From: Victivallis lenta
GTDB lineage: Bacteria > Verrucomicrobiota > Lentisphaeria > Victivallales > Victivallaceae
Reading direction: 5' to 3'
Length of the DNA: 64,000 bases
Assembly (NCBI RefSeq): GCF_009695545.1
Contig: NZ_VUNS01000012.1
Span: forward strand, 62,001 to 126,000
Numbering within the stretch: position 1 is the first letter of the stretch; each line of letters opens with the position of its first letter. Both the position numbers and the translations under genes were made by a program. A model generated the notes under the pieces. It ran no database searches and was not told where the DNA came from. It was given only the letters and a program-made list of their open reading frames with translations. Positions 6,248 to 64,000 of this stretch are shown in pieces.

Positions 6248-6251
6248 CCGG

Positions 6252-15958: not shown

Positions 15959-16031
15959 GTTCCATTCCTTTTTTTGCGGGTTCGTTCCGTCCGGCGCCGT
16001 CCGGATGCGAGCTGTTTTGAACTCTGTATTA

Positions 16032-16060
16032 ATTATACCCGGAACGGCTCCGATATGCAA
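16032..16060 (-). promoter_or_regulatory. Sigma70-type promoter of pseudopilin 2/GH5 operon
   Basis: Minus strand TTGCAT (16055-16060), 17-base spacer, TATAAT (16032-16037), about 74 bases before the start at 15958. Confidence 0.75.
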
Positions 16061-16201
16061 TAGACAATCTGTACGAAAAAGTGCCAACATCGCCAGGAAA
16101 AATTTATCGAAAAAAATGGTGTCCCGGGTTGATTTTTGCGGAGATGGCGATCAAATTACCGGGAAGGCGGATTGCCGGAATGACCGATCAGGGAAGGAGC
16201 G

Positions 16202-23808: not shown

Positions 23809-25929
23809 ATGAATTTTGAACCGGTGAAGTGGCTCGGCGCGGCGGAACAGGGCGGCGCTCCGTATTTCCGTTGCGAATTCGATGCGGAGACGGTCGCCGG
23901 CGCGACGCTGGCGATCTGCGGTCTCGGCTGGTACGAGGTCTGCCTGAACGGCCGGAAGGTCGGCGACCATGTGCTCGATCCGATCGTGACGAATTATGAT
24001 CTCCGCGCCCGTTATGTCGTCTACGATGTCGCGGCGTACCTGAAGCCGGGGCGCAACACCGTCGGCGTCGTGCTCGGCACCGGCTGGTATGACCATGTCG
24101 ACGCCGATGTCTGGAATTTCGATCATGCGGCCTGGCGCGACCGGTGCAAATTCGCGCTGCATCTGCGGTGCGGCGGCGCGGAGCTCGTCTCCGGCGAACC
24201 CGCCGGCTGGAGGTGTACGACGGCCGGGCCGATCACCTTCAACTCCCTGCGGAACGGCGAATATTACGACGCGCGGCTCGAAATGGCGGGCTGGGCGGAG
24301 AACGGCTTCGACGATTCGACATGGCAGGTCCCGGTTCCGCTCGCGCCTCCGGGCGGTGTGCTCGAGGAGCAGACTTCGCCGCCCTGCCGGGTCATGCGGG
24401 TCATCCGGCCGGTTGCGCTGAAGCGGCTCTCCCCGACGCGGGCGGTGGCCGATTTCGGCGTGAACCTCTCCGGCTGGTGCCGCATCCGCGTCCGGGGCAA
24501 GGCCGGAGACACGGTCGAACTGCGCTACGGCGAACGGCTGTTTCCGGACGGGCGCGTCGACAAGGAGCACATCGGCAAATTCGTGCTCTCCGGAGAAAAC
24601 CAGTGCGACCGTTACACGCTGCGCGGCGACGGCGTTGAGGAGTGGGCGCCGCGTTTCACGTTCCACGGCTTTCAATACTGCCAGATCGACGGGGAGCCCG
24701 AGCTGGAGTCCGTTACGGCGGAGTTCGTCCACACCTCGTTTGCGGACGCCGGGAATTTCGAGTCTCCGGATGCGGAACTCAATGCGCTGCAGCGCGCCGT
24801 GCAGGAGAGCTACCGCGGCAATTTCGTCGGGATTCCGTTCGACTGCCCGCACCGCGAAAAGAACGGCTGGACCGGCGATACGCAGCTTGCCGCCGAAACC
24901 GGGCTCTGCAACTTCGACGCCGCTTCGAGCCTCGAGCAGTGGCTCGATACGCTGGCTGACTGCCAGCGCCCGTCCGGCCAGCTGCCCGGCATCGCCCCGG
25001 CCTGCGGCTGGGGGTACAACTGGGGTTCCGGCCCGGCCTGGGATGCGGCGTTTTTCGTGATTCCGGAGCTGATTTACCGGTATACCGGCAGCGGGCGCAC
25101 CTATGAAAAGCATTTCGACGGCATGCTGCGCTATCTCGATTACGCCGCATCGCGCGCCTCCGGCGACCTCGTGGCGTTCGGGCTCGGCGACTGGAACCAT
25201 GTCGACAATGCGAAGATCGCCCCGGTCGAATTCACTTCGAGCGCCTACCTCATGCACTGCAACCGGCTGGCCGCGAAGTTCGCGCGGCGGCTCGGGCGCG
25301 GGGAGGGCGCGATGCTCGACGCGCGGGCGGAGTGCATGCGCGCTGCGCTGAATGCGAGGTACAACAACGGCGGCGGCAGCTTCGCGCATGACGAAATGAC
25401 CGCCCTCGGCATGGCGCTCGTGTTCGACATCGCGCCGGAGGGGGAACGCGCCGCGGCGGCGGAGCGGCTGGCCCGGATCGTCCGCGACAACGGATACAAG
25501 CCGTATTTCGGCATTCTCGGCAGCCGCGCCGTTCCGCGCGCGCTGGCCGATGCCGGGTTCGTCGAAACCGCTTTCCGCCTCTTCATGCAGCCGGAGTATC
25601 CGGGGTGGATTCACTGGCTGCGGCAGGGGGCGACGACGCTCTGGGGCAACTGGCACGGCGAGGCGTCGCGGAACCACATCATGTTCGGCGACGTGAGCGC
25701 CTGGTGCTTCCGCTACCTCGGCGGCCTGGTGCCGGACGAGGCGCACCCGGGATTTTCGTCGGTGACGCTGCGGCCGCACCCGGTTCCGCAGCTCGACTGG
25801 TTCCGCATGTTCCACGACACGCCGCACGGCCGGATCTCGGTCGGCTGGCGCCGGGAGGGCGGAACGTATCAGTTCAACGTCTCGGTTCCGGACGGAATCG
25901 AGCATCATCTGGAGCCTGAAGTCGAATGA
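23809..25929 (+). CDS. GH78 alpha-L-rhamnosidase-like protein, atypical active site
   Basis: 706-residue GH78 homologue without a signal peptide. The N-terminal beta-sandwich (GLGWYEVCLNGRKVGDHVLD) is followed by the barrel signature FDCPHREKNGWTGDTQ with D345, E350 and D357 intact. In the other conserved block, where the rhamnosidase at 17190 has LWENW, this one reads TTLWGNWHGEASRNHIMF, so the Glu thought to be the catalytic base in GH78 is Gly613. It may be inactive, use another residue or act on another sugar. Its stop overlaps the start of the hisA-like gene by 4 bases. The start follows GAGGATGTAA. Confidence 0.82.
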   Translation: MNFEPVKWLGAAEQGGAPYFRCEFDAETVAGATLAICGLGWYEVCLNGRKVGDHVLDPIVTNYDLRARYVVYDVAAYLKPGRNTVGVVLGTGWYDHVDADVWNFDHAAWRDRCKFALHLRCGGAELVSGEPAGWRCTTAGPITFNSLRNGEYYDARLEMAGWAENGFDDSTWQVPVPLAPPGGVLEEQTSPPCRVMRVIRPVALKRLSPTRAVADFGVNLSGWCRIRVRGKAGDTVELRYGERLFPDGRVDKEHIGKFVLSGENQCDRYTLRGDGVEEWAPRFTFHGFQYCQIDGEPELESVTAEFVHTSFADAGNFESPDAELNALQRAVQESYRGNFVGIPFDCPHREKNGWTGDTQLAAETGLCNFDAASSLEQWLDTLADCQRPSGQLPGIAPACGWGYNWGSGPAWDAAFFVIPELIYRYTGSGRTYEKHFDGMLRYLDYAASRASGDLVAFGLGDWNHVDNAKIAPVEFTSSAYLMHCNRLAAKFARRLGRGEGAMLDARAECMRAALNARYNNGGGSFAHDEMTALGMALVFDIAPEGERAAAAERLARIVRDNGYKPYFGILGSRAVPRALADAGFVETAFRLFMQPEYPGWIHWLRQGATTLWGNWHGEASRNHIMFGDVSAWCFRYLGGLVPDEAHPGFSSVTLRPHPVPQLDWFRMFHDTPHGRISVGWRREGGTYQFNVSVPDGIEHHLEPEVE

Positions 25930-26693
25930 GTCTTTTCCGCCCCTGCATCGACCTGCACAACGGACAGGTCAAACAGATCGTCGGCTCCACGCTGACCGAT
26001 TCCGGTTCGTCGCCCCGGACCAATTTCGTGGCGGAGCACGACTCCGCCTGGTACGCCGAGCTCTACCGGAGCGACAACCTGACCGGCGGGCATGTCATCA
26101 AGCTCGGCCCCGGCAACGACGAGGCCGCGAAGCGCGCGCTGGCGGCCTGGCCGGGCGGCCTGCAGCTCGGCGGCGGCGTGAATTGCGATAATGCGGCGGA
26201 GTGGCTCGAGGCGGGCGCCTCGCAGCTGATCGTGACGAGTTTCATTTTCTCCGACGGAGAACTGCGGATCGACCGGCTCGAGCAATTGTTCGACATCACC
26301 GGCCGGGAGCGGCTTGTGCTGGACCTCTCCTGCCGCCGCCGCGAAGACGGGAAATATTATATCGTGACCGACCGCTGGCAGAAATTCACTTCGACCGCGA
26401 TCCATGCGGATACGCTGGCCTTTCTCGGCGATTTCGCCTGCGAGTTCCTGATTCACGCCGTTGACGTCGAAGGCAAGCAGGCCGGCATCGACGAGGAGCT
26501 GCTTTCGCTGCTTGCGGCGGAGAGCCCGATTCCGTGCGTCTATGCAGGCGGCATTGCGAACTTCGGCGACATCGGCAAGATCGAGCGGGCCGGAAAGGGG
26601 CGGATCGCCTACACGGTCGGTTCGGCGCTCGATATCTTCGGCGGTCCGCTGTCGTACTGCGAACTTGCTGCTTACGCGGGCCGGAAGTCCTGA
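25926..26693 (+). CDS. hisA: ProFAR isomerase HisA, eukaryotic (His6) type
   Basis: 255-residue TIM barrel of the yeast His6 branch, catalysing the Amadori isomerisation of ProFAR in histidine synthesis. Sequence typical of this branch: PCIDLHNGQVKQIVGSTLTD, TNFVAEHDSAWYAELY, HVIKLGPGNDEAAKRAL, QLGGGVNCDNAAEWLEAGA, VLDLSCRRREDGKYYI, EFLIHAVDVEGKQAGIDEEL and TVGSALDIFGG. Bacterial HisA proteins usually begin differently and lack the TNF/IKLGPGND blocks. The start overlaps the GH78 gene by 4 bases (ATGA). No other histidine gene is nearby. The branch assignment is from recognised sequence blocks, without an alignment. Confidence 0.88.
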   Translation: MSLFRPCIDLHNGQVKQIVGSTLTDSGSSPRTNFVAEHDSAWYAELYRSDNLTGGHVIKLGPGNDEAAKRALAAWPGGLQLGGGVNCDNAAEWLEAGASQLIVTSFIFSDGELRIDRLEQLFDITGRERLVLDLSCRRREDGKYYIVTDRWQKFTSTAIHADTLAFLGDFACEFLIHAVDVEGKQAGIDEELLSLLAAESPIPCVYAGGIANFGDIGKIERAGKGRIAYTVGSALDIFGGPLSYCELAAYAGRKS

Positions 26694-43451: not shown

Positions 43452-45722
43452 TCAGGCGCGGTGCTTGGTGCGGGCGATCAGGTGGTCCTGGATCTCGGGC
43501 GGAATCAGCCTGAACAGCTGGGAGTAGCCCGCGACCCGGACCGGGATGTTGCCGTAATGCTCCGGGTCCCGCTTCGCCTGTTCGAGCCGTTCGGCCGAGA
43601 CGACGTTCCACTGCATCTGCCCGACGCCCATGGCCAGCGCGCTTCTGAGCAGCGCGATGAAGCGCCCGGCACCGTTTGAACCCTCGAACAGGCTCGGGTG
43701 CAGGTCGATGATCGCGGCCGATGCGCCGCCGGCTTCGCGGTGCGGCTGCTTCGCGAGCGACCGCAGCAGCATGGTGACCCCTTCCCGGTCGCGTCCCTGA
43801 TGCGGCGAAAGCGAGTAGGCGAGCGGTTCCCCCGCCCGCCGCCCGTCCGGCATGGCGCCGACGGCTTCGCCGAAATAGACGTTGTTGTAGAAGCTGAACA
43901 GATGCACGAAAAGACGGTTCCCCTTTTCGCTCCAGCGGTCCATGAGCGCGATGAAGCTGCGCGACAGCTCCGCGGCGATCCGGTCGGTTTCGTCGTCGCC
44001 GTTGCCGTACTTCGGCGTTCCGGCCAGCAGCTGGCCGCGCAGGGCTTCACCGCCGGAGAAATCGTGTTTCAGGGCATCGAGCAGGACTTCGGCCGGAAGC
44101 TGCCGCGATTCGAACACCTGCCGCTTCAGGACGGCCAGGCTGTCGGCCGTGTCCGGCACGCCGAGCAGGCAGATGGAGTGCCAGTTGTATTCCGCGCCGC
44201 CGTCGGTGATGTCGCGCCCGCGTTCGAGGCAGGACGGGGTCAGCAGCGAAAAGGCCGGCAGCGAGCCGAAGAGGCGCTGGTTCCGCTCCTCGCGCCGGCA
44301 GTGGTAGACCATGCGTGACGCCATATATTCGATGTTTTGTTCAAGCCTGCGCATCAGCTCGTCCCAGGAGCCGATGCCGGCCAGGTCCGGCGACTCCGGC
44401 AGCAGCCGTTCCCCGGTCCGGGGATCGCAGCCTCCGAAGAGGGTCAGTTCGAGAACGCGGAGCAGGTTGAACCAACCAGAAACCGCATGGCTGTTCGCTT
44501 TGCCCGGAATGGTCAGTTCGACGCAGCCGATCGGCGCGTAATTGCGGGCGTCCTCCGGCGCGACGCCGCGGTTCGCAAGCGCCGGGATAAAGCAGTCGTC
44601 GTTGAAGAAGAACGGGATGCCGCCGCCCTTCAGCACGAGTTTCGCACACTGCATGAGAAAATCGTCCGGCGTTTGTGAGGTGATCCGGACCGACAGGTCG
44701 CGGATTTCCCCGAACCGTTCGGTCGCTTCGAGGATGATCCGGCTCATTTCGCAGAGCGCCGGCTTCCCGTCTGCATCGACTCCGCCGAGCGTGATCGCCT
44801 GTACGTCGTAGGGCAGGTAGAGCCTGACGGCGAGTTCGATCATCCAGCCGACCGCCTCCTCCCGCGTGATGAGGTTTTGCGCCCGGTCATGTTCGTAATA
44901 GGGCTGGAGCAGCCGGTCGAGCCGCCCGATCGAGTTCGCGTTGATGCCGTCGTCCGCGCAGGCGATCAGGTGGCCGAGCCAGAGCAGCTGGACCGCCTGC
45001 GGAAAGCTTTTTGCGCCGGTTTCGACCGCGAGGCAGTTCCGGGCGGTTTCGGCAGCTCCGGCCTGGCGGGCAAGCTCGGCGTGGCGACGTCCGAACAGGA
45101 GTCCCGCGTCGCAGACCGCCAGGGCGGCACGCAGGAAGTTCTCGCGGCGGACATAGTCGCAATTGTGGAGCGGAAAACGTTCGAGCTGCCGTTCGGCCAG
45201 GCGCCGGAGCCCGCCGAAACCATGCTTGAGCAGGAAGCCGTAGTCGCGGACCGAGTGGTTTTCGACCCAGCCGACTGCGGTGAAGACCGGCGCTGCTCCG
45301 CCGGTTCCGGCGGGGAGGGCGGGCCAGCCGCCGGCCATGCCGGTCCGGCTTCCCGGTGTGCTTTCGCCGGGGGAGACGGCGGAACGGCAGCTTCGCAGCT
45401 GCCGGGCGGTTTCGCGGAGCTCCGCGAGCCGGAAGTCGCCGAGTTCATCCAGTTGCCGCTGCTTCTCCTCGTCGCCGCCGTCCCGGTCGTCTCCGAAGAA
45501 GTGGTTGAAGTGCTCGCCCGCCAGCAGGGAATCCGGGTCGAAGGCGAGCGGCATAAGTTTTGCCGATTCGTATATGGTCATGGCGCGAATCTGGCTGAGC
45601 GAACGCTCCGGCGTGAAGGCGAGAAAGCGTGCCGCGTCGCGGAGCATCGGATTGGGCGCGGACGGGAAGGAGCCGTTTCTCTCTTTGATTTTCCGGAGAA
45701 GAAGCTGTTGACGCGGATTCAT
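43452..45722 (-). CDS. Glycyl radical enzyme 2 (dehydratase-type)
   Basis: 756-residue glycyl radical enzyme. The thiyl loop is YAPIGCVELTIPG with C400 and E402, the GCVE form of diol dehydratases, choline lyase and relatives. The radical glycine is G732 in a standard IPVRVAGYSQLFRLIPPEIQ. The start at 45722 follows GGAGG closely. There is no adjacent activase, so radical installation must come from elsewhere, perhaps the activase at 6252. An AraC regulator lies 90 bases upstream on the same strand and is the likely controller. The substrate is unknown. Confidence 0.9.
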   Translation of the reverse strand: MNPRQQLLLRKIKERNGSFPSAPNPMLRDAARFLAFTPERSLSQIRAMTIYESAKLMPLAFDPDSLLAGEHFNHFFGDDRDGGDEEKQRQLDELGDFRLAELRETARQLRSCRSAVSPGESTPGSRTGMAGGWPALPAGTGGAAPVFTAVGWVENHSVRDYGFLLKHGFGGLRRLAERQLERFPLHNCDYVRRENFLRAALAVCDAGLLFGRRHAELARQAGAAETARNCLAVETGAKSFPQAVQLLWLGHLIACADDGINANSIGRLDRLLQPYYEHDRAQNLITREEAVGWMIELAVRLYLPYDVQAITLGGVDADGKPALCEMSRIILEATERFGEIRDLSVRITSQTPDDFLMQCAKLVLKGGGIPFFFNDDCFIPALANRGVAPEDARNYAPIGCVELTIPGKANSHAVSGWFNLLRVLELTLFGGCDPRTGERLLPESPDLAGIGSWDELMRRLEQNIEYMASRMVYHCRREERNQRLFGSLPAFSLLTPSCLERGRDITDGGAEYNWHSICLLGVPDTADSLAVLKRQVFESRQLPAEVLLDALKHDFSGGEALRGQLLAGTPKYGNGDDETDRIAAELSRSFIALMDRWSEKGNRLFVHLFSFYNNVYFGEAVGAMPDGRRAGEPLAYSLSPHQGRDREGVTMLLRSLAKQPHREAGGASAAIIDLHPSLFEGSNGAGRFIALLRSALAMGVGQMQWNVVSAERLEQAKRDPEHYGNIPVRVAGYSQLFRLIPPEIQDHLIARTKHRA

Positions 45723-45812
45723 TGCAACCTCCATGGTTTTGTGTGCAATGATAGAATACCGCGGCAACCTGGAAATTTCTTTGGCGAAAATGCCAGATTC
45801 TTGTCTGTTCGT

Positions 45813-52084: not shown

Positions 52085-52118
52085 ATTGTCTTATCCTTCA
52101 GAAAGGTTGTTTCTTTTC

Positions 52119-52931
52119 TCACACCACCGCGAGCCCGAGCGCCATCAGGAACATTCCGGCGACGAGCCCGTACAGCGACCAATGCTCTTCCCCGTACTTG
52201 TGCGCCATCGGCAGCAGGCCGTCGAAGGTCACGAAAACCATGATTCCGGCCACTGCCGCGTAGATGATCTCCAGCACCGCCGAGGTCAGGAACGGTGCGA
52301 GCACCAGATAGCCGAGCAGCGCCCCGGCCGGGTCGGCCAGGCCGGTCAGACTCGCGTACCAGAACGCCTTGGCCCGGCTGCCGGTCGCGTAATAGACCGG
52401 CACCGACACAGCGATTCCCTCCGGGATATTGTGCAGCGCCATGGCGAGCGCAACCGGAATGCCGAGCTCAAGCCCGCTCAGGCTCGCCGCGAAAACGGCC
52501 AGCCCTTCCGGGAACTTGTGAATTGCGATCGCGGCCGCAAAACGGATTCCGGCGCGGTGCAGCTTCGCGTAGTCGGGCGGATTCTGTTTGTCCATCTCCT
52601 CGACGGACTTGGTTTCGTGCGGGTTCGCCGGTTCCGGCACAAGCCGGTCGATGATGCCGGCCAGAAGCATGCCGCCGAAAAACGCCCCCATCGACAGAAA
52701 GGCGCCGGTTTTGCCGCCGAACTCCTCCCGCAGCGAAAGGTTCGCCCCGGCCAGGAGCTCGACGAACGAAATGTAGACCATGACGCCGCCCGAGAGGCCG
52801 AGCGCCACGGAAAGCATGCGGGTGTTGGTCCGCCGGGTGAAAAAGGCCGCCGCCGCCCCTGCCGCCGTGGCCAGCCCGGCCAGCGTGGTCAGAAGAAATG
52901 CGCCCCATACCGATCCGGCGAAGATTTCCAT
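52119..52931 (-). CDS. zupT: ZIP-family metal transporter ZupT
   Basis: 270-residue inner-membrane importer for zinc and other divalent metals, with about eight helices. The two metal-site motifs are FAAAIAIHKFPEGLAVF and ALAMALHNIPEGIAVSVP in consecutive helices. The loop between helices III and IV holds an acidic/polar stretch (HETKSVEEMDK). It lies 12 bases after lysC and 34 bases before proS on the same strand. Length and motifs match ZupT well. Confidence 0.93.
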   Translation of the reverse strand: MEIFAGSVWGAFLLTTLAGLATAAGAAAAFFTRRTNTRMLSVALGLSGGVMVYISFVELLAGANLSLREEFGGKTGAFLSMGAFFGGMLLAGIIDRLVPEPANPHETKSVEEMDKQNPPDYAKLHRAGIRFAAAIAIHKFPEGLAVFAASLSGLELGIPVALAMALHNIPEGIAVSVPVYYATGSRAKAFWYASLTGLADPAGALLGYLVLAPFLTSAVLEIIYAAVAGIMVFVTFDGLLPMAHKYGEEHWSLYGLVAGMFLMALGLAVV

Positions 52932-52943
52932 TGCCCGCTCTCC

Positions 52944-54353
52944 TTATATCTGTTCGTGCTCCACGAGTTCGCGGTGAAGCGCCTTCTGCGCCGTCTCGAA
53001 GTCTTCCCGGTCGATGATGAACTGCATGTTGACCTGCCGGATGCACTGGTCGAGCGCGAGGACGTTGATCTTCGACTCGGCCAGCGCCTTCGCGGCGCGA
53101 TGCAGGAACCCCGGCAGCTTCATGTTCGTGCCGATCACACTGACGATCGCAACCTCGCGTGTCGAAATCTGCGCTCCGTGAAAATGCTCCTTCAGCTCCT
53201 TCAGGCACTTGTCGAGGTTCTTCGACTTCTCGGACACGAAGTGCGTGATGGTGTTCGCGTTCGTGTTCTTGGCGATATAGCTGATCTTGTTCTTTGCGAA
53301 ACTCGCGAGGACGTTGTAGTCGTAGCCGGGTTCGCCGACCATTTCGGGGTCGAACACTTCGATCGCGAGCACGTCGCGGCGGCCGCAGATCATATCGACG
53401 CGCGGTGTCGGCGCGACGTAATCGCGCGAAATCAGGGTCCCCGGATTACCCGGATCGAACGCATTCGCAACCCGGATCGGAATTCCGGCCAGCTCCATCG
53501 CCTTCGATGCTTTCGGATGAATTGCCTCCATCGCCATGTCGGCGAGCTGGTCGGCGATATCGTAGTTCGTATGGCCGATCGTGCGGACCTTGTCCGCCCC
53601 GATCAGCTTCGGGTCGCCGGTCGAAAGGTGGAACTCCTTGTGGATGATCCCCTCCCGCGCTCCGGTCACGACTGCGAGCTTGCTGAAGGTGATCTCACTG
53701 TAACCGCGGTCGAATTTGGCCATGACTCCTTCCTTGCACTTCGCATAGCCGGTCACGATCGGCATGCAGCTTGCGAAGTCGAGACCGGCGAGATGGCCGG
53801 AAATGGTCTCCTCCATCGAGTCGGTGTCCTGGTCGCGCCAGCCGGAAAGATCGACGAAGACCGCGTTCACGCCGCGTTCGCGCAGGATCAGCGTGGAGTT
53901 GAACGCGCTGTGCGCTTCGCCGATCGAACTCAGGAGTTCGCGCGCCGCCGGGAGGTAGTCCTCGCGGTGGAAGTGGCCGAAGCTGCGCAGCTGCATCAGG
54001 TGACGCAGGCAGTTCTTGACGCCGTCCATGCGCTCGTTGACGAAGTCGTCCGCCGCTGTCTGATCGAGCCCGAGTTCTTCGAACGAGCGGTTCAGCCGGA
54101 TCATTTCGTTGCGGGTCTCTTCGAGCTTGTTCTCCCAGATCCGGTCGCCGGCCGCGAAACTCGCATAGATGCCCGGCTCGGCGGTCTTCTTGTTTTCAAG
54201 CAGAAGGTTCGTGATGCCGCCATAGGCGGAAACCACGAAGATGCGGTTGTAGAGCTCCGCTCCCCTGCGGCTGCCGATGAGGATATTCTCCATCAGCTCG
54301 CCGAAGCGGGTCATCGAGGTCCCGCCGATTTTTTCTACGGTATGCTGTCCCAT
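52944..54353 (-). CDS. lysC: Aspartate kinase
   Basis: 469-residue aspartokinase for the first step to lysine, threonine and methionine. Catalytic domain signatures: HTVEKIGGTSMTRF, FDRGYSEITFSKLAV, and EAIHPKASKAMELAGIPIRV. Two C-terminal ACT domains (about 320-469; VAIVSVIGTNMKLPGFLHRA) bind feedback inhibitors. The KIGGTSM start rather than KFGGTSV recalls the branch found in ectoine clusters, but no ectoine gene is here. It follows hom by 21 bases, so the two consecutive pathway enzymes are cotranscribed. Confidence 0.93.
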   Translation of the reverse strand: MGQHTVEKIGGTSMTRFGELMENILIGSRRGAELYNRIFVVSAYGGITNLLLENKKTAEPGIYASFAAGDRIWENKLEETRNEMIRLNRSFEELGLDQTAADDFVNERMDGVKNCLRHLMQLRSFGHFHREDYLPAARELLSSIGEAHSAFNSTLILRERGVNAVFVDLSGWRDQDTDSMEETISGHLAGLDFASCMPIVTGYAKCKEGVMAKFDRGYSEITFSKLAVVTGAREGIIHKEFHLSTGDPKLIGADKVRTIGHTNYDIADQLADMAMEAIHPKASKAMELAGIPIRVANAFDPGNPGTLISRDYVAPTPRVDMICGRRDVLAIEVFDPEMVGEPGYDYNVLASFAKNKISYIAKNTNANTITHFVSEKSKNLDKCLKELKEHFHGAQISTREVAIVSVIGTNMKLPGFLHRAAKALAESKINVLALDQCIRQVNMQFIIDREDFETAQKALHRELVEHEQI

Positions 54354-54374
54354 CGTCTGTGGATATCCTGTTGC

Positions 54375-55667
54375 TTAAATGTCTTCGATCCGCATGAGCT
54401 TGACCGGAGACTGGTTGATCGAGAGCGTATCGATTTCGCCGAGCGCGTTCCTGACTTCCCGCTCGTTGGCCTTGTGGGTCAGGATGACGAGCGGAACCGC
54501 GCCGTCGGCGCCGTAGCGTTCGTGCTGGATCAGGCTCGAGATGCTGATGCCGCGGTCCGCGAGGATCTGCGTGATCGACGCGAGCACGCCCGGGCAGTCC
54601 TTGACCATGAAACGCAGGTAGTAGCGCGACGAGATGTCGTCGATCGCGGCAACCTGCTCGAACTGTTCGCCGGGGCGGAAGGCCGGAATCCGGCGGACCG
54701 AACCGGCCGCGATGTTGAGCGCCACGTCGGTGATGTCGGCGACGACGGCGCTCGCCGTCGCGCTGCGACCGGCGCCGCGCCCGTAGAAGAGCGTCTGGCC
54801 GACGGCGTCGCCTTCGACCATCACGCCGTTGAACACGTCTGAAATATTCGCCAGCAGCGTGCTTTTCGGGATCAGCGTCGGGTGGACGCGCATCTGGACC
54901 TTGCCGTTGTTCGACTTGATGATCGCAAGCAGCTTGATCCGGTAACCGAGTTCGTCCGCATAGCGCAAGTCGTCCAGCGCGAGATCGCGGATGCCTTCGA
55001 CGAAGACCGGGTCCATGCCGAACCAGCGGCCGAAGGCCAGAGACGCGAGGATCGAGGTTTTGTGCGCCGTGTCGAATCCGTCGATGTCGAGCGACGGATT
55101 CGCTTCGGCATAACCGAGCTTCTGCGCGTCGGCCAGCACGGTATGGAAGTCGGCCCCCTCGTTTTCCATTCGGGTCAGGATGTAGTTGCAGGTGCCGTTC
55201 ATGATGCCGTAAATCCGGCTGATGCGGTTCGAGACCAGGCCCTCGCGAAGCGCCTTGATGATCGGGATTCCGCCCGCGACGCTCGCTTCGTAGCAGACGT
55301 CGACGCCGGCTTTTTCGGCCGCGTCGAAGATCTCTTTGCCGTGCAGCGCGAGCAGCGCCTTATTGGCGGTCACGACATGCTTGCCGGCGCTGATCGCCTC
55401 GAGAATGAATTTTTTCGCAATGGTCGTGCCGCCGACGAGTTCGACGACGATGTCGGACTCCCGGATCGCCACGGCGGCATCGGTGGTCAGAAGTTCCCGC
55501 GGCACCGCGACACCCCGGTCGGTGGTGATGTCGAGATCGGCGATACGGGTCAGAACGAGTTTGACGCCGGTGCGCTTGGCAACGACTTCACTGTTCTTGA
55601 GAATGTTTTCCGCGACTCCGGCACCGACCGTGCCGAATCCGATAATTCCGACTTTTACTTCTTTCAC
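54375..55667 (-). CDS. hom: Homoserine dehydrogenase
   Basis: 430-residue NAD(P)-dependent enzyme converting aspartate semialdehyde to homoserine. The nucleotide-binding N-terminus is VKVGIIGFGTVGAGVAENIL. Family sequences are VTANKALLALHGKEIFDAAE, YEASVAGGIPIIKALREGL, GIMNGTCNYILTRMENEGAD and DIDGFDTAHKTSILASLAFG. A C-terminal ACT domain (about 350-430) suggests threonine feedback. It leads a long minus-strand run, with a good promoter at 55723-55751. Confidence 0.95.
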   Translation of the reverse strand: MKEVKVGIIGFGTVGAGVAENILKNSEVVAKRTGVKLVLTRIADLDITTDRGVAVPRELLTTDAAVAIRESDIVVELVGGTTIAKKFILEAISAGKHVVTANKALLALHGKEIFDAAEKAGVDVCYEASVAGGIPIIKALREGLVSNRISRIYGIMNGTCNYILTRMENEGADFHTVLADAQKLGYAEANPSLDIDGFDTAHKTSILASLAFGRWFGMDPVFVEGIRDLALDDLRYADELGYRIKLLAIIKSNNGKVQMRVHPTLIPKSTLLANISDVFNGVMVEGDAVGQTLFYGRGAGRSATASAVVADITDVALNIAAGSVRRIPAFRPGEQFEQVAAIDDISSRYYLRFMVKDCPGVLASITQILADRGISISSLIQHERYGADGAVPLVILTHKANEREVRNALGEIDTLSINQSPVKLMRIEDI

Positions 55668-56174: not shown

Positions 56175-57245
56175 TTACAGCAGGTCCGAATACGGAACCT
56201 TGAGGAAGAAAAATTTCCGGACCGAATCGATCGCCAGGTACAGTTTCTCCTCCCCGTCATCAGCAAAGCCGTGCGGATAGGCCGCCTGAGGCAACGCCTC
56301 ACCGCCGTCCCAGAAGCCGTCCCATGTGTTCGGATTCTCTTTGTTCAGCCGGGCCAGCGGCAGCTTCTTCGACCAGTTCGCGCAATTGTCGTTGCTGATC
56401 CACAACTCCAGCACGTCGCGTTCCCTCCGCTCAGGCGTGCAGACATTGTTGACAAGCACGTGGCGGCCGCGGATTTTGTAAATCACGAATTTTGTGCCGG
56501 GATTCGGAATCGCGGAAGGCCGCGCGGTGCTCCAGCTTCGTCCGTAGTCGAAACTGTCACTCTCCCAGAGGACGGCATCCGCGTGTTCGTAGCGGACGAA
56601 CATTTTCAGGTGTCCCGGCTCAAGCTCGGTCACTTCCGGTTCCCACGCATGGCCGGGAGTGGCGACCGCGCCGTGCAGGGAAAACGTTTTTCCGCCGTCG
56701 GTCGAACGGATTACTCCGGAGGTATAGAACGCATCGGGCGCGTTACAGGCTGTCCAATCCGACCGCTGTTCGAGCCAGTAAACCGGAAAGAGCCAGCTGC
56801 CGTCGCTCAGGACCTTCCCCTGCCGGACCGAGAAATTCGGCGGTACTCCCGGTATTGAAACCGGATTCGTCCAGCTTTTTCCGTTGTCGTCCGTGAAGGT
56901 CATGAAGGCGCGCAGTTCGGCGTAGGTCGTTTCATGGCAGAAGGTCTGGAAGACCGCGAACGGCCGGGAGGTTTCCGTGAAAAGTTCGGTCCCCCAGGTG
57001 CAGCGGAACGGATGTTTGAACAGGAGTTCCGGTTTCGACCAGCTCGCGCCGTCGTCAGTGCTGCGGATCACGGCCGCCACGTTGTCCGGATGCGGCTCCT
57101 TCGTGCCGCCTGTGTAGACGAGCGAGACGATCGAACCGTCCGGCATGCGGCGCGGCGTCGGTTCGCGGCCGAACAGAAAACGATCGTCGGCTTTGAACAT
57201 GAGCGTGGCGGGGTAGGCGAATTCGATCCGGTCGGTGTGTTCCAT
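56175..57245 (-). CDS. Asp-box (BNR) sialidase-fold protein
   Basis: 356-residue six-bladed propeller without a signal peptide. Five Asp-box-like turns are visible: STDDGASWS, TDDNGKSWT, STDGGKTFS, SFDYGRSWS and the degenerate SNDNCANWS. An RxP-type start (FGREPTPRRMPDGSIVSL) and WGTELFTETSRP resemble exo-sialidase-fold hydrolases of PVC bacteria; sialidase activity itself is not assured. The start at 57245 has AGGAG 7-8 bases upstream and a strong promoter at 57287-57315. It diverges from an AraC gene, its likely regulator. Confidence 0.82.
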   Translation of the reverse strand: MEHTDRIEFAYPATLMFKADDRFLFGREPTPRRMPDGSIVSLVYTGGTKEPHPDNVAAVIRSTDDGASWSKPELLFKHPFRCTWGTELFTETSRPFAVFQTFCHETTYAELRAFMTFTDDNGKSWTNPVSIPGVPPNFSVRQGKVLSDGSWLFPVYWLEQRSDWTACNAPDAFYTSGVIRSTDGGKTFSLHGAVATPGHAWEPEVTELEPGHLKMFVRYEHADAVLWESDSFDYGRSWSTARPSAIPNPGTKFVIYKIRGRHVLVNNVCTPERRERDVLELWISNDNCANWSKKLPLARLNKENPNTWDGFWDGGEALPQAAYPHGFADDGEEKLYLAIDSVRKFFFLKVPYSDLL

Positions 57246-57286
57246 TTTTTTCTCCTGATTTCGATTTCCGGGTTGCATTCTTCTTA

Positions 57287-57315
57287 ATTATACGCTATTT
57301 TCCAACAGGAAGCAA
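57287..57315 (-). promoter_or_regulatory. Promoter of the Asp-box gene
   Basis: Minus strand TTGCTT (57310-57315), 17-base spacer, TATAAT (57287-57292), 42 bases before the start. Confidence 0.7.
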
Positions 57316-57353
57316 TTGCAGAAAACCAACCGTTTCTTTCGAATTTCGACACT

Positions 57354-58229
57354 ATGAATGAATTCGGCGACGAACGCAAGCTGAAGCTCGAAGGGCTGCT
57401 TGATCCGGAGACGGCGGAGACGGCCGCGCGGATCATTCTCGATGCGGAACCGATCGTGCTCGGCATCACCTTCTGGAACTGTTTCCGGCCGTGGGACGTT
57501 CCGGAGAGGCGGATCTGCGACAACTTTTTCTTCCTGACCGTTTCGGGGGAGGAACGCGTGACGGTGAACGGAGAGGAACGGATTCTGCGCCGCGGGGATG
57601 CGATGATCGTGCCTGAATTCATCCCGCACTCATTCGGACTTGCCGACGGCTGCGGCGCGTCGCAGCATTTCATCGCCCACGCGCTGACCGGGGATGTCGC
57701 CGGGGCGAATCCGTTCGGCTGTTTCGCTTCGCCCTTCCTGCATCCGGAGCACACGGAGGCCGTGCTGACGCGGCTGGAAACGATCGTCGCCGTACGCAAC
57801 ACATCGCCCGATGCCGCGCAAAGCGCGATGAAACAGCTGTTCAAGGAACTGATGCTCGAGGAGGCGCGGGCGGGACGCTTCCGCTTTTCGGTTCCGCGGC
57901 GGAACGACGGGCGCATTGCGTTGGCCCTTGCGTACATCAACGCGAATTTCGCAGGCAGCATCGCGGTTGCCGACATCGCGGCGCATGTCCGGCTCGGCGA
58001 AGTGCAGTTCCGCAAACTTTTCCGGCGCGAAGTCGGCATGAGCCCGGCCGCCTGCCTGCAGCGGACCCGGCTGGTTCACGCCGCCCGGCTGCTGGCACGG
58101 TACGACCTGCCGCTCGCCGAGGTGGCGGAACAGTCCGGATTCTCGAACGAGTGCTACTTTTCGACTGCTTTCCGCGCCGCCTTTGCACGCACGCCCGGGC
58201 AGTATCGCCGCTATATCCGCGGCCGCTGA
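57354..58229 (+). CDS. AraC-family transcriptional regulator
   Basis: 291-residue regulator. A cupin-like sensor (CDNFFFLTVSGEERVTVNGE, then ERILRRGDAMIVPEFIPHSF) is followed by an AraC DNA-binding domain (AGSIAVADIAAHVRLGEVQF; LPLAEVAEQSGFSNECYFST; FARTPGQYRRYI). No clear ribosome site precedes the ATG, so expression may be low. It diverges from the Asp-box gene and ends 12 bases from the convergent GRE3 stop. Confidence 0.88.
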   Translation: MNEFGDERKLKLEGLLDPETAETAARIILDAEPIVLGITFWNCFRPWDVPERRICDNFFFLTVSGEERVTVNGEERILRRGDAMIVPEFIPHSFGLADGCGASQHFIAHALTGDVAGANPFGCFASPFLHPEHTEAVLTRLETIVAVRNTSPDAAQSAMKQLFKELMLEEARAGRFRFSVPRRNDGRIALALAYINANFAGSIAVADIAAHVRLGEVQFRKLFRREVGMSPAACLQRTRLVHAARLLARYDLPLAEVAEQSGFSNECYFSTAFRAAFARTPGQYRRYIRGR

Positions 58230-58241
58230 CCGGATGTCGTT

Positions 58242-60470
58242 TCAGACGCAGTGGCGGTGCCGGTTGATGATCTCATCCTGCAGCTGCGGGTCGAGCGCAG
58301 TGAACTTCGCGGAAAAGCCGCCCACCCGGACGATCAGGTGCCGGTAGGACTCCGGATCGCGCCGCGCTGCGCGGAGCTCCTCGACGCTCGTAGTGTTTCC
58401 CTGGAAAATCTGCCCGCCGGTGGCGATGAAGCTGCGCAGCAGCCCCTGCAGCACGTCGAGCCGGGTCAATCCGCCGGAGAGATCCCACATCGAGGCGACA
58501 CCGCCCGGGGCCGCGCCGAGGTCGAGCCGGTTGGCCGACTGCATGGCCGTGCCGATGCCGCGGGTCATCGAACTCGAATGCGGCGTCATGCCCTGCGCGA
58601 CCGGGACGCCGGCCTTATGGCCGTTGGCCGAGGCGCCGAGCGCATTGCCGGCGATCGGGCTGAAAACGAAGCTCATCAGCATCGGCTTGACCTTGCCGCC
58701 GAAGCGGTTGGAAAAACCGTCGTAAATGGCGCAGACGTCGCGGAACAGCCGGGCGGCCATCCCGTCGGCCTCCGGGTCGCCCTGGCCGAATTTCGGCAGT
58801 TTGAGCAGCCGGAGGCGCAGGAGCTCATCCGATGCGAAATTGCTTTGCAGCGCGGCGAGCAGACCGGCCTTGCCCGCGATTCCGTTTTCGAACACGGCGT
58901 GTTTCAGGGCATACAGACTGTCGGCGGCATCCGGCAGGCCGATCGGAGTCGAGCCGTAGTCGTTGTAGCGTGCGCCGCCGTCGTTGAGATTCCGGGCACG
59001 CTCGATGCAGTCGGAAACCTGCGCGGAGAGCAGGAAGGCCGGACGCAGCCGCGCCGCCTCTTCGCTGAACAGATCCATGCAGCGGAAGGTGAAGCCGAGC
59101 GTGGTTTTCAGATTGCCGAGGAAGGCGCCGTAAAGCTCTTCGAAGCTGTCGAACTCCTCGAGGGTGCGCCGGTATCCGGACAGCATCCGGCAGCCGGTAT
59201 TCAGGCAGATGCCGCCGTTCAGCGTGAGCTCGAGGATTTTCGGGACGTTGAAGAAGCCGGTGAACAGCAGATCGCAGTTCATCCCCTGCGGAGAAAGTTC
59301 CATGCAGCCTCCGCACATATACATGGCCGCGTCCTCCGGCGCGACGCCGCCGCGGACCAGCGCCGGGACGATCGAGCGGTCGCTCAGGATCTGCGCCATG
59401 TTGTGCCCGTCCTTCAGGTACTCCGCCGCGAGTTCGAGCAGGGCCGGAGGCGGATTTTCCGGAATGCGGATGTAGACGTGCGGCGTGGTGACCGCGAGCT
59501 TCATGATGACGCGCACCATGATTTCGGAGAGCGGGTTGAACGCGCTTGAGCCGTCCGGACGGCTGCCGGCGACCATGATGGTTTCGATCCCCATATCCTT
59601 GCAGTAGTTCCGCTCATGCATGCGCAGAAAAAGCTCGGCGACCTTTTCCGTCGCCGATTCGACGGTCTCCCGCCCTGCGGCGAGGTCGCGTTCGAGGTAC
59701 GGCCAGAGAAAATAGTCGAGCCGCCCCGGGCCGTTGCCGCCGTAGGGATTCTCGAACATGGTTGCAAGGTAGGAGAAATGGAACGCCTGAAGTGCTTCAT
59801 GGAAGGTCCGGGCCCCGTACCGCGGCACCCGGCGGACCAGCGCAAGCTTGGCGCGGAGCTCCCGGCGGCGGACTTCGGTGCGGCAGCTCCGCAGCGCCTT
59901 TTCGAGCTTCTTTGCGTGCAGGTCGTTCCAGGCAAGCATCGCTTCGAGCAGAATGCGGCAGCCCTCCAGAAATTCCCGCCCTTCGGCGTCGGCTTTGCGG
60001 TACGATCTTCCGATTCGCCGCAGCAGCCCGGTGACGCCGGATTCGAGAATCCATTCGTAGCGCCAGCCGACATGGCCGGGCGCGCAGGACGCATAGGTGA
60101 CCCACGACGGGTTTTTTCCGTCCCGGTCGGCGCCGGTCAGTTCGGCCAGGCCCGGAATTTCGCGCCGGGCGCGTTGTTCGGCGACGTAATTGCAGTCGAA
60201 ATCCCGCCAGCGCGGATCGAAATCGCTGCCGCCGAGGTCACCGCAGTATTCGGTGTAAAGCTGTCCGGCCAGATAAGGGCCGCCGCCGGTGCGCACCGGC
60301 GTGTGCAGTAGCGCATATGCGAGCGAACGCGCCTGCCGCTCGCGCAGCGGCAGGCCGGCGAAACGCCCGAAAAACGCCTCGGTAATGCGGGCGCGCTTGC
60401 GTTGTTCGGGGGGACGGGCGGCGCGGCGCTCGGCCGCCCGGAGCTGTTTGATCGGGTCGAATTGATTCAT
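58242..60470 (-). CDS. Glycyl radical enzyme 3 (dehydratase-type)
   Basis: 742-residue glycyl radical enzyme. The thiyl loop is YMCGGCMELSPQG with C389 and E391 (GCxE), preceded by an extra Cys386. The radical glycine is G718 in LIVRVGGFSAKFTALDPQLQ. The N-terminal region differs strongly from GRE1 and GRE2, so it is a separate subfamily. It starts 10 bases after the stop of the large secreted glycoside hydrolase and is probably expressed with it, linking extracellular glycan cleavage to a cytoplasmic radical step. No activase is next to it. The substrate is unknown. Confidence 0.9.
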   Translation of the reverse strand: MNQFDPIKQLRAAERRAARPPEQRKRARITEAFFGRFAGLPLRERQARSLAYALLHTPVRTGGGPYLAGQLYTEYCGDLGGSDFDPRWRDFDCNYVAEQRARREIPGLAELTGADRDGKNPSWVTYASCAPGHVGWRYEWILESGVTGLLRRIGRSYRKADAEGREFLEGCRILLEAMLAWNDLHAKKLEKALRSCRTEVRRRELRAKLALVRRVPRYGARTFHEALQAFHFSYLATMFENPYGGNGPGRLDYFLWPYLERDLAAGRETVESATEKVAELFLRMHERNYCKDMGIETIMVAGSRPDGSSAFNPLSEIMVRVIMKLAVTTPHVYIRIPENPPPALLELAAEYLKDGHNMAQILSDRSIVPALVRGGVAPEDAAMYMCGGCMELSPQGMNCDLLFTGFFNVPKILELTLNGGICLNTGCRMLSGYRRTLEEFDSFEELYGAFLGNLKTTLGFTFRCMDLFSEEAARLRPAFLLSAQVSDCIERARNLNDGGARYNDYGSTPIGLPDAADSLYALKHAVFENGIAGKAGLLAALQSNFASDELLRLRLLKLPKFGQGDPEADGMAARLFRDVCAIYDGFSNRFGGKVKPMLMSFVFSPIAGNALGASANGHKAGVPVAQGMTPHSSSMTRGIGTAMQSANRLDLGAAPGGVASMWDLSGGLTRLDVLQGLLRSFIATGGQIFQGNTTSVEELRAARRDPESYRHLIVRVGGFSAKFTALDPQLQDEIINRHRHCV

Positions 60471-60480
60471 GATTCCAGAT

Positions 60481-63400
60481 TCACCATAAGATCAGGGTTC
60501 CGAATTGGCGCGGGTCCTTGCGGGGACCGATTCCGCTGGTCCATTGCAGGAAGCCTTTGCGCACGGCTCCGTCGTTGTCGTTGACGAGGAATGAGAAGCC
60601 GAGCTTCATTCCGCGCTTCGGCTTCACGCCGAGAGCGCTCCACGGCAATTCGATGTCGTAACGGGTAATTTCACCTTCACGGACCGCCTTGAACACGGCC
60701 TGTTTTTTCAGTCTTTCCGCCATGCCTCCCGGCGCGGCGAAAACGGAGAATTCCGGGCCGTTGCGGGTCAGGCCGAAGCACAGCTCGTAGTCGTCGTTGT
60801 CGTAGTTGACCGACCGGTTGCACAAGGTGTCGATGCCGATCTGGACCGAGTCGCCGTCGAACAGCGGGCCGTCCGCCTTGAACGGCTGGTGGTGGACGTC
60901 GTCCGTCACTTCGAGCGACAGCCGGAGCGAAGTGTCGTTCCATGCGGCGGTGAGCCGTCCTGAAAGATCCTTCGGGCCGCCCCAGCGGGCGTCGGAGATG
61001 ACGGGGTAATACTGTTCGGCGCTGTTGAGTGCGGCTCCGGGGGGCGCGGTTTCGCCGTCGCGGGCGCACAGCAGGAAATCGACCGGGCGTTCAAGCTCAA
61101 AGGCTTCGCCGCCGGAGAGCGTTCCGTTCAGCCGGAGCCGGTTATGGTTGGAGAGCGGTTCCCGCGCGGAGAGCCGGAACCGGAACTGCGCGCTCTCTCC
61201 GGGAGCGACTCCGGAGAAGTCCGCCTTCTCCGGCTGGAACGTACCGGGGAAGTCGGCTGAAACCCGGAGTGTGCCGCTGCGCGGTTTTCTCGACAGGTTG
61301 GCGATGCCGGCGGCCAGTTCCAGCGAACCGTCGGCGCTGAGGCCGGCGGGCTCGATGCTGAGCCGGACCGGCGCTCCCGCCGTCGCTTCGAGTTCCGCCG
61401 AGGCTTTGAAGAAGCCGCGGTTGAAATCGGCGGAGGCGAGGAGCCGCAGCGGTTTGGCCGGGGCCGTTTTAAGTTCGACTTCGACCGGAATTTCGGCCGT
61501 TGCTCCGGCGGCCAGCTCGATTCGCCGGTTCCCGGATTTCGCCGTGCTGCCCGGCGGAGCCCAGACGTTCAGCTCGACCGTGCAGGCGTGCTTGAACGGG
61601 TTGACGATCCGGAGCGGCACGCTCCGGGCTTCTCCCGGCAGCAGCGTCACCGGATTCTCCGGGAAGGTCAGGCTCTGCTGGCGGCCCGGAATTTCCGGGG
61701 CAAGCCCCGCGATGAAAATCGGGTCGGGCCCGACGGCGAGCTCCGTGAAGCCGTCCGCCACGCTCATCTCCGGCGCGGCGCCGTCGATCCGGGTCACGGT
61801 GAATGCGTCGCCGAGATTCAGCTTGAGCTTTTCATCCCGGTCGCTCCAGAGCACGATGACCGCCTCGCGGCCGTCGGAGAAGGCGAACGCCCGGGCGTAC
61901 TGCCCGTATTTGAAGGCATTCTGGAACTTTTTCCCGTAAAGCATGCGCACAGTCAGGTTGAAGGCTGCCCCCGCCGGCAGGATCCCGCCCTTTTCATCGA
62001 GCAGCCCCCAGTTTTCATAGTCGTACCGGCTGCCGACCCGGCTGGCCTGGTAGACGAAGATCTTCTCGACGCCTTCGGCGAGGAGCCCGACCATCTGGCG
62101 CACGACTTCGCGGGCCTGCTGCCGAAGCGCATTCCGCCAGCGGGCCTCTTCGGCTTCCGGTGTTTCGTTTTCACGTTTTTCGATCGTGGTGTTGCAGCCG
62201 GTTTCGGTGACCCAGATCGGTTTGACGCAGTTGTATTTGGCCAGCAGGTTCCTGACTGCCGCAAGCCGCGCCTGGAGCTCGACCCCCGAAACGTAGGTAT
62301 GGTCCGAATAGATATCGAAATAGGCGCCGCCTCCGGCCGCGAGGACGGCGTCGAGGAACGGGGCGAAGCCGCCGTCAAGCGCCATCGCGGCGACCTTCGC
62401 TTCCGGATCGGCGGCTTTGATCGCCTCGTAAATGGTCTTCATGACCCGGACGAAGTCGGCGTGGCTCCCGTTCCACGCATACGGAAGATCCGGCTCGTTC
62501 CAGATTTCCCAGTATTTGATGTAATCCTTATAGCGGTTCACGACGGCGGTTACATAAGCATGCAGCGCTTTGTGGTCGCGCGGCGCGTAGGAGTAGTAAT
62601 CCGCCGCGTCCGGCCGGGGCGAATTCCATTTCGCCGTGCTGCTGATGAGCCCGAGGATGCGGATATCCTGCGCTTTGGCTTCGGAGACGATCCGGTCGGT
62701 GCGTTCCCAGTCGAACCGGCCCTGTTCCGGCTCGATCAGTTGATGCGCGAACTCCCAGCGCAGATATTTGGCGCCGAGCTCCCGCTCCATTTCCGGGAAC
62801 TGGAAACAGTTGATGCCGAAAGGCGAGTCGTCGCCCTGTTCCACCGGCACGACGGCCGGCAGCGCGGCGGCGCCCGGTTCGGCAGCCGTTTTTCCGGCTG
62901 GAGGAGCCAGGGCCGCTTCGCGTTTTTCGGCCAGGCCGATCCCGGCTTTGTCGCCATAGGTGTAGTAGAGCTTCAGCCCGTCGCCGTCGATGAGCACGGA
63001 CGGGTTGTCGCCGGGGAACAGCTCCGTGCCGGAGCGTTTCCAGTCAAAGCCGTTTTCGGAGGCGGCTTCGCCGATGCGGCACTGCCGGTCCGCGCCGATC
63101 ACGCCGTACCACATGCGGTAGCCGGTCCCGTTTTTCCGCACGCAAAGCGAAGTCAGGATATCGCCGCCGAAAGCCGGGCTGCCCTCCATGACCGGCGCGG
63201 GGCGGCGCGTCCACTCGGAGCCGTCGTCGGATTCCGCGTAACAGACGCGCGGTTTCCAGCCGCCTTTTTCGGTGGCGAGATACCACATCTTGAACCGCCC
63301 GTCCTCAAGAAGCACGGAGGGCGACGCGACCGCGCCGCCGTCCGTCGCGGCGAGTACCGCGTTGCCCGGATATTTGCTGAAGGTGACGCCGTCCGGCGAC

Positions 63401-63792
63401 GAGGCGTAGCCGATCGCGGCCGGAGTGTTCCAGTCGGGCGCCCCGGCGAACCAGATGTGATAGATGCCGTTCTCCTTGAGGACGCTCGGAGAACCGATCA
63501 CGTTCCAGGAGCCCGGCTGCCCTTCCGGGTCGCGCGGGACGGCCGGGGATTTCTCCGGCGTGAAAGCGGTTCCGTCGGCGCTCCGGGCCCGGAAGATCTC
63601 CAGCGCCCCCCAGTAGCCGGAGAAGAACAGCGTGTACTGCCCGTCCTCCGCCAGTATCGCCGGCGAGTGGATGTTCAGGAACGAGCCTCTGGAGAGGACC
63701 GGATTCCCGGCGGCCGGTTTCCATGCATCGGCCCCGTGGACGGCGGCTGCGGCAAGAAACATCATTGCGGTTGCAAAGTTTCTGAAATTCAT
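60481..63792 (-). CDS. Secreted multidomain glycoside hydrolase: propeller + GH39/GH5-like barrel + CBM9-like
   Basis: 1103-residue exported protein. Residues 1-21 are a signal peptide (FATAMMFLAAAAVHGADA). Residues about 24-290 are a five-bladed propeller like GH43/GH130/GH32 clans (HSPAILAEDGQYTLFFSGYW; GSPSVLKENGIYHIWFAG; SPSVLLEDGRFKMWYLA). Residues about 320-620 are a clan A barrel with KYWEIWNEPDLPY (acid/base E433) and PIWVTETGCN (nucleophile E530). Two beta-sandwich domains follow (about 700-940). From about 950 a CBM9-like module begins (PVISDARWGGPKDLSGRLTA to DSVQIGIDTL). A propeller joined to a GH39/GH5-like barrel is uncommon. It follows the pseudopilin by 28 bases and precedes GRE3 by 10 bases. 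Confidence 0.82.
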   Translation of the reverse strand: MNFRNFATAMMFLAAAAVHGADAWKPAAGNPVLSRGSFLNIHSPAILAEDGQYTLFFSGYWGALEIFRARSADGTAFTPEKSPAVPRDPEGQPGSWNVIGSPSVLKENGIYHIWFAGAPDWNTPAAIGYASSPDGVTFSKYPGNAVLAATDGGAVASPSVLLEDGRFKMWYLATEKGGWKPRVCYAESDDGSEWTRRPAPVMEGSPAFGGDILTSLCVRKNGTGYRMWYGVIGADRQCRIGEAASENGFDWKRSGTELFPGDNPSVLIDGDGLKLYYTYGDKAGIGLAEKREAALAPPAGKTAAEPGAAALPAVVPVEQGDDSPFGINCFQFPEMERELGAKYLRWEFAHQLIEPEQGRFDWERTDRIVSEAKAQDIRILGLISSTAKWNSPRPDAADYYSYAPRDHKALHAYVTAVVNRYKDYIKYWEIWNEPDLPYAWNGSHADFVRVMKTIYEAIKAADPEAKVAAMALDGGFAPFLDAVLAAGGGAYFDIYSDHTYVSGVELQARLAAVRNLLAKYNCVKPIWVTETGCNTTIEKRENETPEAEEARWRNALRQQAREVVRQMVGLLAEGVEKIFVYQASRVGSRYDYENWGLLDEKGGILPAGAAFNLTVRMLYGKKFQNAFKYGQYARAFAFSDGREAVIVLWSDRDEKLKLNLGDAFTVTRIDGAAPEMSVADGFTELAVGPDPIFIAGLAPEIPGRQQSLTFPENPVTLLPGEARSVPLRIVNPFKHACTVELNVWAPPGSTAKSGNRRIELAAGATAEIPVEVELKTAPAKPLRLLASADFNRGFFKASAELEATAGAPVRLSIEPAGLSADGSLELAAGIANLSRKPRSGTLRVSADFPGTFQPEKADFSGVAPGESAQFRFRLSAREPLSNHNRLRLNGTLSGGEAFELERPVDFLLCARDGETAPPGAALNSAEQYYPVISDARWGGPKDLSGRLTAAWNDTSLRLSLEVTDDVHHQPFKADGPLFDGDSVQIGIDTLCNRSVNYDNDDYELCFGLTRNGPEFSVFAAPGGMAERLKKQAVFKAVREGEITRYDIELPWSALGVKPKRGMKLGFSFLVNDNDGAVRKGFLQWTSGIGPRKDPRQFGTLILW

Positions 63793-63820
63793 CTTGTGTC
63801 GGATTCCTGCTTGAATTGAT

Positions 63821-64000
63821 TTAAAATTCCACCCACCAGCGCATGGCCGGGTATTCGCGCTCCGCGAGCGCCTGCGGGCCGCGAGATGCGACGTGACCGT
63901 CGAGGAACAGGATGTTGCCGCGGCCTGAATGCCTGGCGAACTCGTTGACCCGGGCTGTCGGCTCGGCGGTGTAGAAGAACCAGAAGTCCTTCATCGGCCA
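63821..64000 (-). CDS. Pseudopilin C-terminus with H-X9-DG motif, 5' part beyond right edge
   Basis: Fifty-nine codons and a TAA stop at 63821-63823 remain open to the right edge. The translation contains FFYTAEPTARVNEFARHSGR then GNILFLDGHVASRG, i.e. the H-X9-DG ending of the PVC pseudopilin family, and finishes MRWWVEF. The other two pseudopilins in the window have the same motif ([24 protein letters not shown]). It lies 28 bases before the secreted multidomain hydrolase, repeating the pseudopilin-hydrolase order. The FTLIEL leader lies outside the window. Confidence 0.85.
   Translation of the reverse strand, partial: WPMKDFWFFYTAEPTARVNEFARHSGRGNILFLDGHVASRGPQALAEREYPAMRWWVEF

Follow-up and report, generated by a model that had tools for sequence, protein, structure and literature searches.

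A glycyl radical enzyme from an uncharacterised clade encoded directly behind an exported glycosidase-like protein in Victivallis lenta

Anaerobes of gut and sediment rely on glycyl radical enzymes (GREs) for many key reactions, and for numerous GRE clades no substrate is known. Among the described members, Escherichia coli YbiW and PflD are GREs that, according to PMC12441222, act on 1,5-anhydroglucitol- and 1,5-anhydromannitol-6-phosphate, in agreement with the titles of PDB entries 8id7 and 8id0. Here we analyse a 64,000-nucleotide stretch of the Victivallis lenta genome (the window; G000:C12:62001-126000 in source genome numbering), in which the gene of a 742-residue GRE, GRE3 (58242-60470, minus strand), directly follows that of a large exported hydrolase of 1103 residues (60481-63792, minus strand). 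Our preferred reading, held tentatively and at somewhat less than an even chance, is that GRE3 is a competent GRE of an uncharacterised clade, perhaps acting on a sugar-sized substrate, that it is activated in trans and that it forms the tail of a glycan-linked gene run, with a hydrolase link particular to this lineage.

Judged from its sequence, GRE3 is a member of the GRE superfamily with the predicted catalytic Cys, Glu and Gly residues conserved. In Pfam it matches PFL-like (357 bits, cut-off 24.3) and Gly_radical (48.3 bits, cut-off 22.2). It lies below the cut-off of every NCBIfam GRE equivalog (HypD, HpsG, HpfG, CutC, IAD, HPAD and PFL), with 263.5 bits where the HypD model requires 1100 and a comparable shortfall for the others; the sulfopropanediol, choline and hydroxyproline models are far from being passed, and the PFL2-3 subfamily model is not passed at 304 bits (cut-off 678). 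The putative thiyl Cys389 (59304-59306, minus strand) and Glu391 (59298-59300, minus strand) are kept in all 27 members of the GRE3 clade, and the putative radical Gly718 (58317-58319, minus strand) in all 26 members that reach this position. Identical throughout the 27 are, besides C389 and E391, M390, D400, G244, G245, N246, P248, G249, D252, M661 and D663, with G717 identical alongside G718 in the 26. Motifs of the types GGNxPG, GGCMEx8D and GxxxM[WFI]D occur in every clade member and in none of the 38 other GREs compared, while R[VI]GG[FYW] is found in 26/27 and 2/38, respectively. An AlphaFold2 model from 35 sequences (pLDDT 92.3, pTM 0.93), which supersedes one from 10 sequences (pLDDT 72.4, poor active-site loops), resembles whole GREs, with 1r8w as the top match in Foldseek and 2f3o in VIA-align. 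The predicted fold gives no indication of substrate.

The GRE3 loci, 27 in 26 genomes from Lentisphaerota, Armatimonadota and one Hydrogenedentota, form a single clade (SH-aLRT 100, stem of 0.98 changes per column in a quick IQ-TREE run of 57 rows), and a 46-row tree returned the same clade for the first 11 loci; the tree does not fix where it branches relative to other GREs. Within the class, 9 of 197 genomes, counting that of the window, hold relatives with at least 44% identity, from at most five scored candidates per genome. An even phylum-wide draw yielded matches in 4 of 387 genomes, all within the class. GRE3 was further detected in 16 of 291 genomes from the phylum of the Armatimonadota record and in 1 of 68 from that of the Hydrogenedentota record, and a named-contig scan returned six loci, four of which are the same records as class genomes. 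None of the eight other genomes of the window's genus carries GRE3, and the clade is not named in the open-licence literature searched.

Thirteen GREs are encoded in the window's genome, 11 of them seen as single matches and two split by the search, alongside eight activase-like loci, of which six are above the cut-off. An activase lies within about 7 kb of ten GREs; the three without one are GRE3, C2:139410 and GRE2, a second GRE of the window (43452-45767, minus strand; identified by homology and tree). No activase was found on the GRE3 contig in any of ten other GRE3 genomes tested, and in one of the GRE3-bearing assemblies, G001 (84% complete), none was found anywhere at E <= 1e-20. Among the further loci, only L138 has an activase (319.6 bits, cut-off 174), located 74 nt past GRE3 on the downstream side, which places one beside GRE3 in at least 1/27 loci, a lower bound because several contigs end close to GRE3. 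From this distribution we infer that GRE3 is activated in trans. At L027, the gene that follows a GRE3 orthologue after 15 nt encodes a radical SAM protein (L027:9721-10689); it is unlike a GRE activase, and three activase queries gave no match to it. At two other places in the window's genome (window 4922-10491 and L018:1632-7015), a GRE is grouped with a GntR-like regulator, an FGGY-type kinase and an activase-like protein, the last below the TIGR02494 cut-off both times; some of these gene names are provisional.

B12-independent glycerol/1,2-propanediol dehydratase (PDB 1r8w, 5i2g) has a fold like that of the GRE3 model (Z about 43), and counterparts of the glycerol dehydratase residues His164, Cys433 and Glu435 and of its glycyl loop are present in GRE3. 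In contrast, His281, Ser282, Asp447 and Tyr640, which we take to be the diol-binding residues of that enzyme, correspond to Gly244, Gly245, Phe403 and the variable residue 606, i.e. by alignment and clade conservation GRE3 lacks the presumed diol-binding set. The invariant Gly244 and Gly245, in place of His281 and Ser282, would give more room. We propose that GRE3 is a thiyl-radical eliminase whose substrate would be a hydroxylated compound, perhaps of hexose size. An activase encoded elsewhere would put the glycyl radical on GRE3, whereupon Cys389 would become a thiyl radical and abstract hydrogen from the hydroxylated substrate. Glu391 would then aid elimination, yielding an aldehyde or ketone that would enter ordinary carbohydrate catabolism. 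A sugar-sized substrate fits because glycines replace the diol-binding side chains and because YbiW and PflD, as described in PMC12441222, offer a precedent.

The original prediction held that GRE3 starts 10 bases past the stop of the hydrolase, and this is borne out: a TGA, 10 nt (60471-60480, minus strand) and an ATG are read directly from the sequence, and both ATG-initiated reading frames sit exactly at the coordinates then given. Upstream of the hydrolase by 28 nt is a pseudopilin-like gene call, cut at the window end (63821-64000, minus strand; L016:821-1468) and slightly below the N_methyl cut-off (21.0 bits against 21.2), and a further 43 nt upstream, outside the window, a LacI-type regulator is called (L016:1512-2594, same strand) with LacI and Peripla_BP_3 both above their cut-offs. 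The result is a same-strand run from LacI-type regulator through pseudopilin and hydrolase to GRE3, with gaps of 43, 28 and 10 nt. That hydrolase and GRE3 belong to one operon is plausible, since the pseudopilin and LacI-type regulator genes precede the pair on the same strand. GRE3 would be the last gene of this run, probably on one transcript, and is therefore probably made when the glycan in question is used. A promoter-like consensus was found nowhere on either strand of 57200-64000 (0.7 expected from shuffles), and once before the LacI gene on the same strand (0.5 expected), i.e. at chance level. The third-position GC contents of GRE3 (82.5) and the hydrolase (81.4) lie inside the range of the window's 44 genes (mean 80.6, standard deviation 5.5), and give no sign that either gene was recently acquired from a genome of distant GC content. 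Converging on GRE3 from the other side is a cupin-AraC regulator (57354-58229, plus strand; HTH_18 and Cupin_2). Pseudopilin-like genes recur in this genome (window 3459-4211 and 15188-16090, L016:821-1468 and L022:1343-1981), some of them adjoining sugar-type regulators and secreted proteins, and may be a standard cassette of it.

The hydrolase combines a signal-like N-terminus (MNFRNFATAMMFLAAAAVHGADAW, judged by eye), a glycosidase core and a carbohydrate-binding domain. The core scores just over the cut-offs of Glyco_hydro_cc (32.7 bits, cut-off 21), Glyco_hydro_10 (27.4 bits, cut-off 22.1) and GH5 and stays under that of GH39 (20 bits against 26). PslG is the best solved match (E 1.8e-7), its alignment covering the predicted barrel at residues 337-681 (61750-62784, minus strand). 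Two glutamates of the barrel line up with PslG motifs, on which basis Glu433 of a WNEP motif (62494-62496, minus strand) is the candidate acid/base and Glu530 of a VTET motif (62203-62205, minus strand) the candidate nucleophile. The preceding region (62833-63723, minus strand), presumably a five-bladed propeller, matched no Pfam family and is weakly GH130-like, with a phmmer match to a 1,2-beta-oligomannan phosphorylase at E 0.002 and 22.3 bits (cut-off 450) against the NCBIfam beta-1,2-mannobiose phosphorylase model. At the C-terminus, residues 934-1102 (60487-60993, minus strand) form a CBM9-like domain (PF06452, CBM9_1; E 2.9e-15, 57.1 bits against a cut-off of 23.4). Because the family scores are weak, we place the hydrolase in no CAZy family.

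Several observations weigh against our preferred reading of GRE3. No activase was found near it in the window's own genome. The expectation that the same pair would recur elsewhere did not hold: at the other 26 GRE3 loci, no called gene is a homologue of the hydrolase (phmmer E <= 1e-6). Of the 27 GRE3 genes, 26 have an upstream gene in view, and in 2 of these it encodes an exported-looking protein of at least 600 residues no more than 30 nt away; other genes show this in 4 of 302 cases, which is no significant enrichment (Fisher p = 0.074; p = 0.33 without the window). Exported-looking is defined here by a home-made hydrophobicity rule, which picked out background membrane proteins as well. 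In favour of the reading, the wider surroundings of GRE3 frequently include carbohydrate genes (GH36, GH4, xylose-isomerase-like, Gfo/Idh, BNR), but in phyla that are rich in such genes; other neighbours are not sugar-like (TPP enzymes, an E1 dehydrogenase, aldehyde dehydrogenase, amidohydrolases, MTTB, URO-D). On the homologue search, the upstream-neighbour test and the survey of hydrolase relatives that follows, a conserved hydrolase-GRE pair is rejected as a general rule. Relatives of the hydrolase occur in 101 of 197 class genomes (about 25-42% identity over parts, three candidates per genome scored), and among those listed none lies on a GRE3 contig except the window's own. Two further candidate neighbours do not change this: the glycosidase-like L031:1024-3066 (25% over 169 residues to the window's barrel, E 1e-6) falls short of the phmmer limit, matches no glycosidase family in Pfam and does not directly adjoin GRE3, and the exported-looking product of L030:2931-4244, divergent from GRE3, has no Pfam match.

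Taken alone, such findings would suit GRE3 having fallen by chance behind one of many secreted glycosidase genes, at most sharing a promoter, with a substrate unrelated to the glycan. The hydrolase search raised 102 first-look candidates in the window's genome (three scored), and GRE3 is missing from its eight congeners. We nevertheless regard mere proximity as unlikely on the whole, as the run carries a sugar-type (LacI) regulator and as the second upstream neighbour of the test, in Armatimonadota locus L029, is likewise glycosidase-like: a 1011-residue exported-looking protein with a GH42 match (25.8 bits, cut-off 21) lies 7 nt upstream of GRE3, its sequence unrelated to the window hydrolase by BLASTP. 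This is suggestive of a repeated glycosidase-GRE association, though no proof of one. The parallel could also be taken, together with the 10-nt spacing and the LacI regulator, to mean that an unusual sugar is released by the hydrolase and that GRE3 acts on that sugar or its first derivative. We consider this direct coupling improbable, given that the pair is not conserved, that family scans of the two upstream genes and the nearest neighbours recognised no importer or kinase in the run, and that nothing in the GRE3 model scores points to a deoxy, branched or sulfonated sugar. Of the coupled unit originally proposed, the exported glycosidase-like protein and the GRE, on one strand 10 nt apart, stand, and they lie behind the LacI and pseudopilin genes; the claim of a functional unit fails the conservation check proposed with it. 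The link in the window's genome is real and probably regulatory, and the attachment of this hydrolase to GRE3 is particular to the window's lineage rather than part of a conserved two-enzyme system.

The window holds three GREs (8143-10491, GRE2 and GRE3), of which GRE2 lies 12.5 kb from GRE3. In 4 of the 27 GRE3 loci, a GRE of the GRE2 clade directly adjoins GRE3 on the same strand (L066:12299-17090, L127:6125-9619, L128:7916-12457 and L129:4045-8404, with gaps of 148, 51, 153 and 61 nt, respectively; the L127 GRE2-type gene is truncated by the contig end), across two phyla, Lentisphaerota and Armatimonadota. Under a crude null that assumes 13 GREs per 3000 genes, 0.22 such neighbours are expected among the 50 neighbouring genes in view and P(at least 4) = 8e-5, a value that overstates the specificity of the pairing because GRE tandems occur elsewhere too (G000:C22, G631:C125). 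At the former, three consecutive GRE genes precede an activase and a gene of dehydrogenase type, the latter coming first (L022:7494-15466). The tandems, and the fact that GRE2 and GRE3 of the window both lack a nearby activase, would agree with the two being partners in consecutive radical steps of one pathway, to which the hydrolase is incidental. However, GRE2 lies twice upstream and twice downstream of GRE3, 23/27 loci have no adjacent GRE2 (some contigs being short), other GREs form tandems as well, and the genus genomes G191 and G193 have GRE2 without GRE3, which together make such a module unlikely in our view. More speculative still, and decidedly improbable, is that GRE3 and GRE2 would be the two halves of a radical carbohydrate pathway in Lentisphaerota and Armatimonadota that shares a remote activase and performs consecutive eliminations on a hexose-sized compound, the window's GRE3 half having become joined to an inducible glycan-degradation operon.

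Two further features of the window are recorded. HisA (25926-26693) scores 344.6 bits with NCBI's eukaryotic-type model TIGR02129, above its cut-off of 229.3, and is far below the bacterial model, and a 918-residue open frame at 52086-54842 (plus strand), antisense to several real genes, is a high-GC artefact.

In conclusion, the GRE3 clade is marked by clear-cut motifs, its 27 members span at least three phyla, and it offers informative neighbours and one member with its own activase; its reaction could therefore be settled by few experiments. Should GRE3 act on sugar-sized substrates as tentatively proposed, radical chemistry in anaerobic glycan breakdown would extend beyond anhydrohexitol phosphates. 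Compared with known systems, the hydrolase has its barrel and two Glu motifs in common with PslG and the GH39, GH10 and GH5 glycosidases of clan A, and differs from them by the additional N-terminal GH130-like region and the C-terminal CBM9. For GRE3, the best structural match is Archaeoglobus fulgidus 'PFL2' (PDB 2f3o; Z 47.2, rmsd 2.2, 716 residues aligned), which likewise has a C-x-E motif, but is 26% identical and has neither GGNxPG nor GGCMEx8D in the alignment. HypD, the trans-4-hydroxy-L-proline dehydratase, and the remaining NCBIfam GRE equivalogs share the superfamily with GRE3. YbiW and PflD share the GRE fold with GRE3 and set, according to PMC12441222, a precedent for sugar-sized substrates; they differ in being 26-27% identical to GRE3, on a separate tree branch, and in having an activase adjacent to their genes, and they may still share an activity with it.

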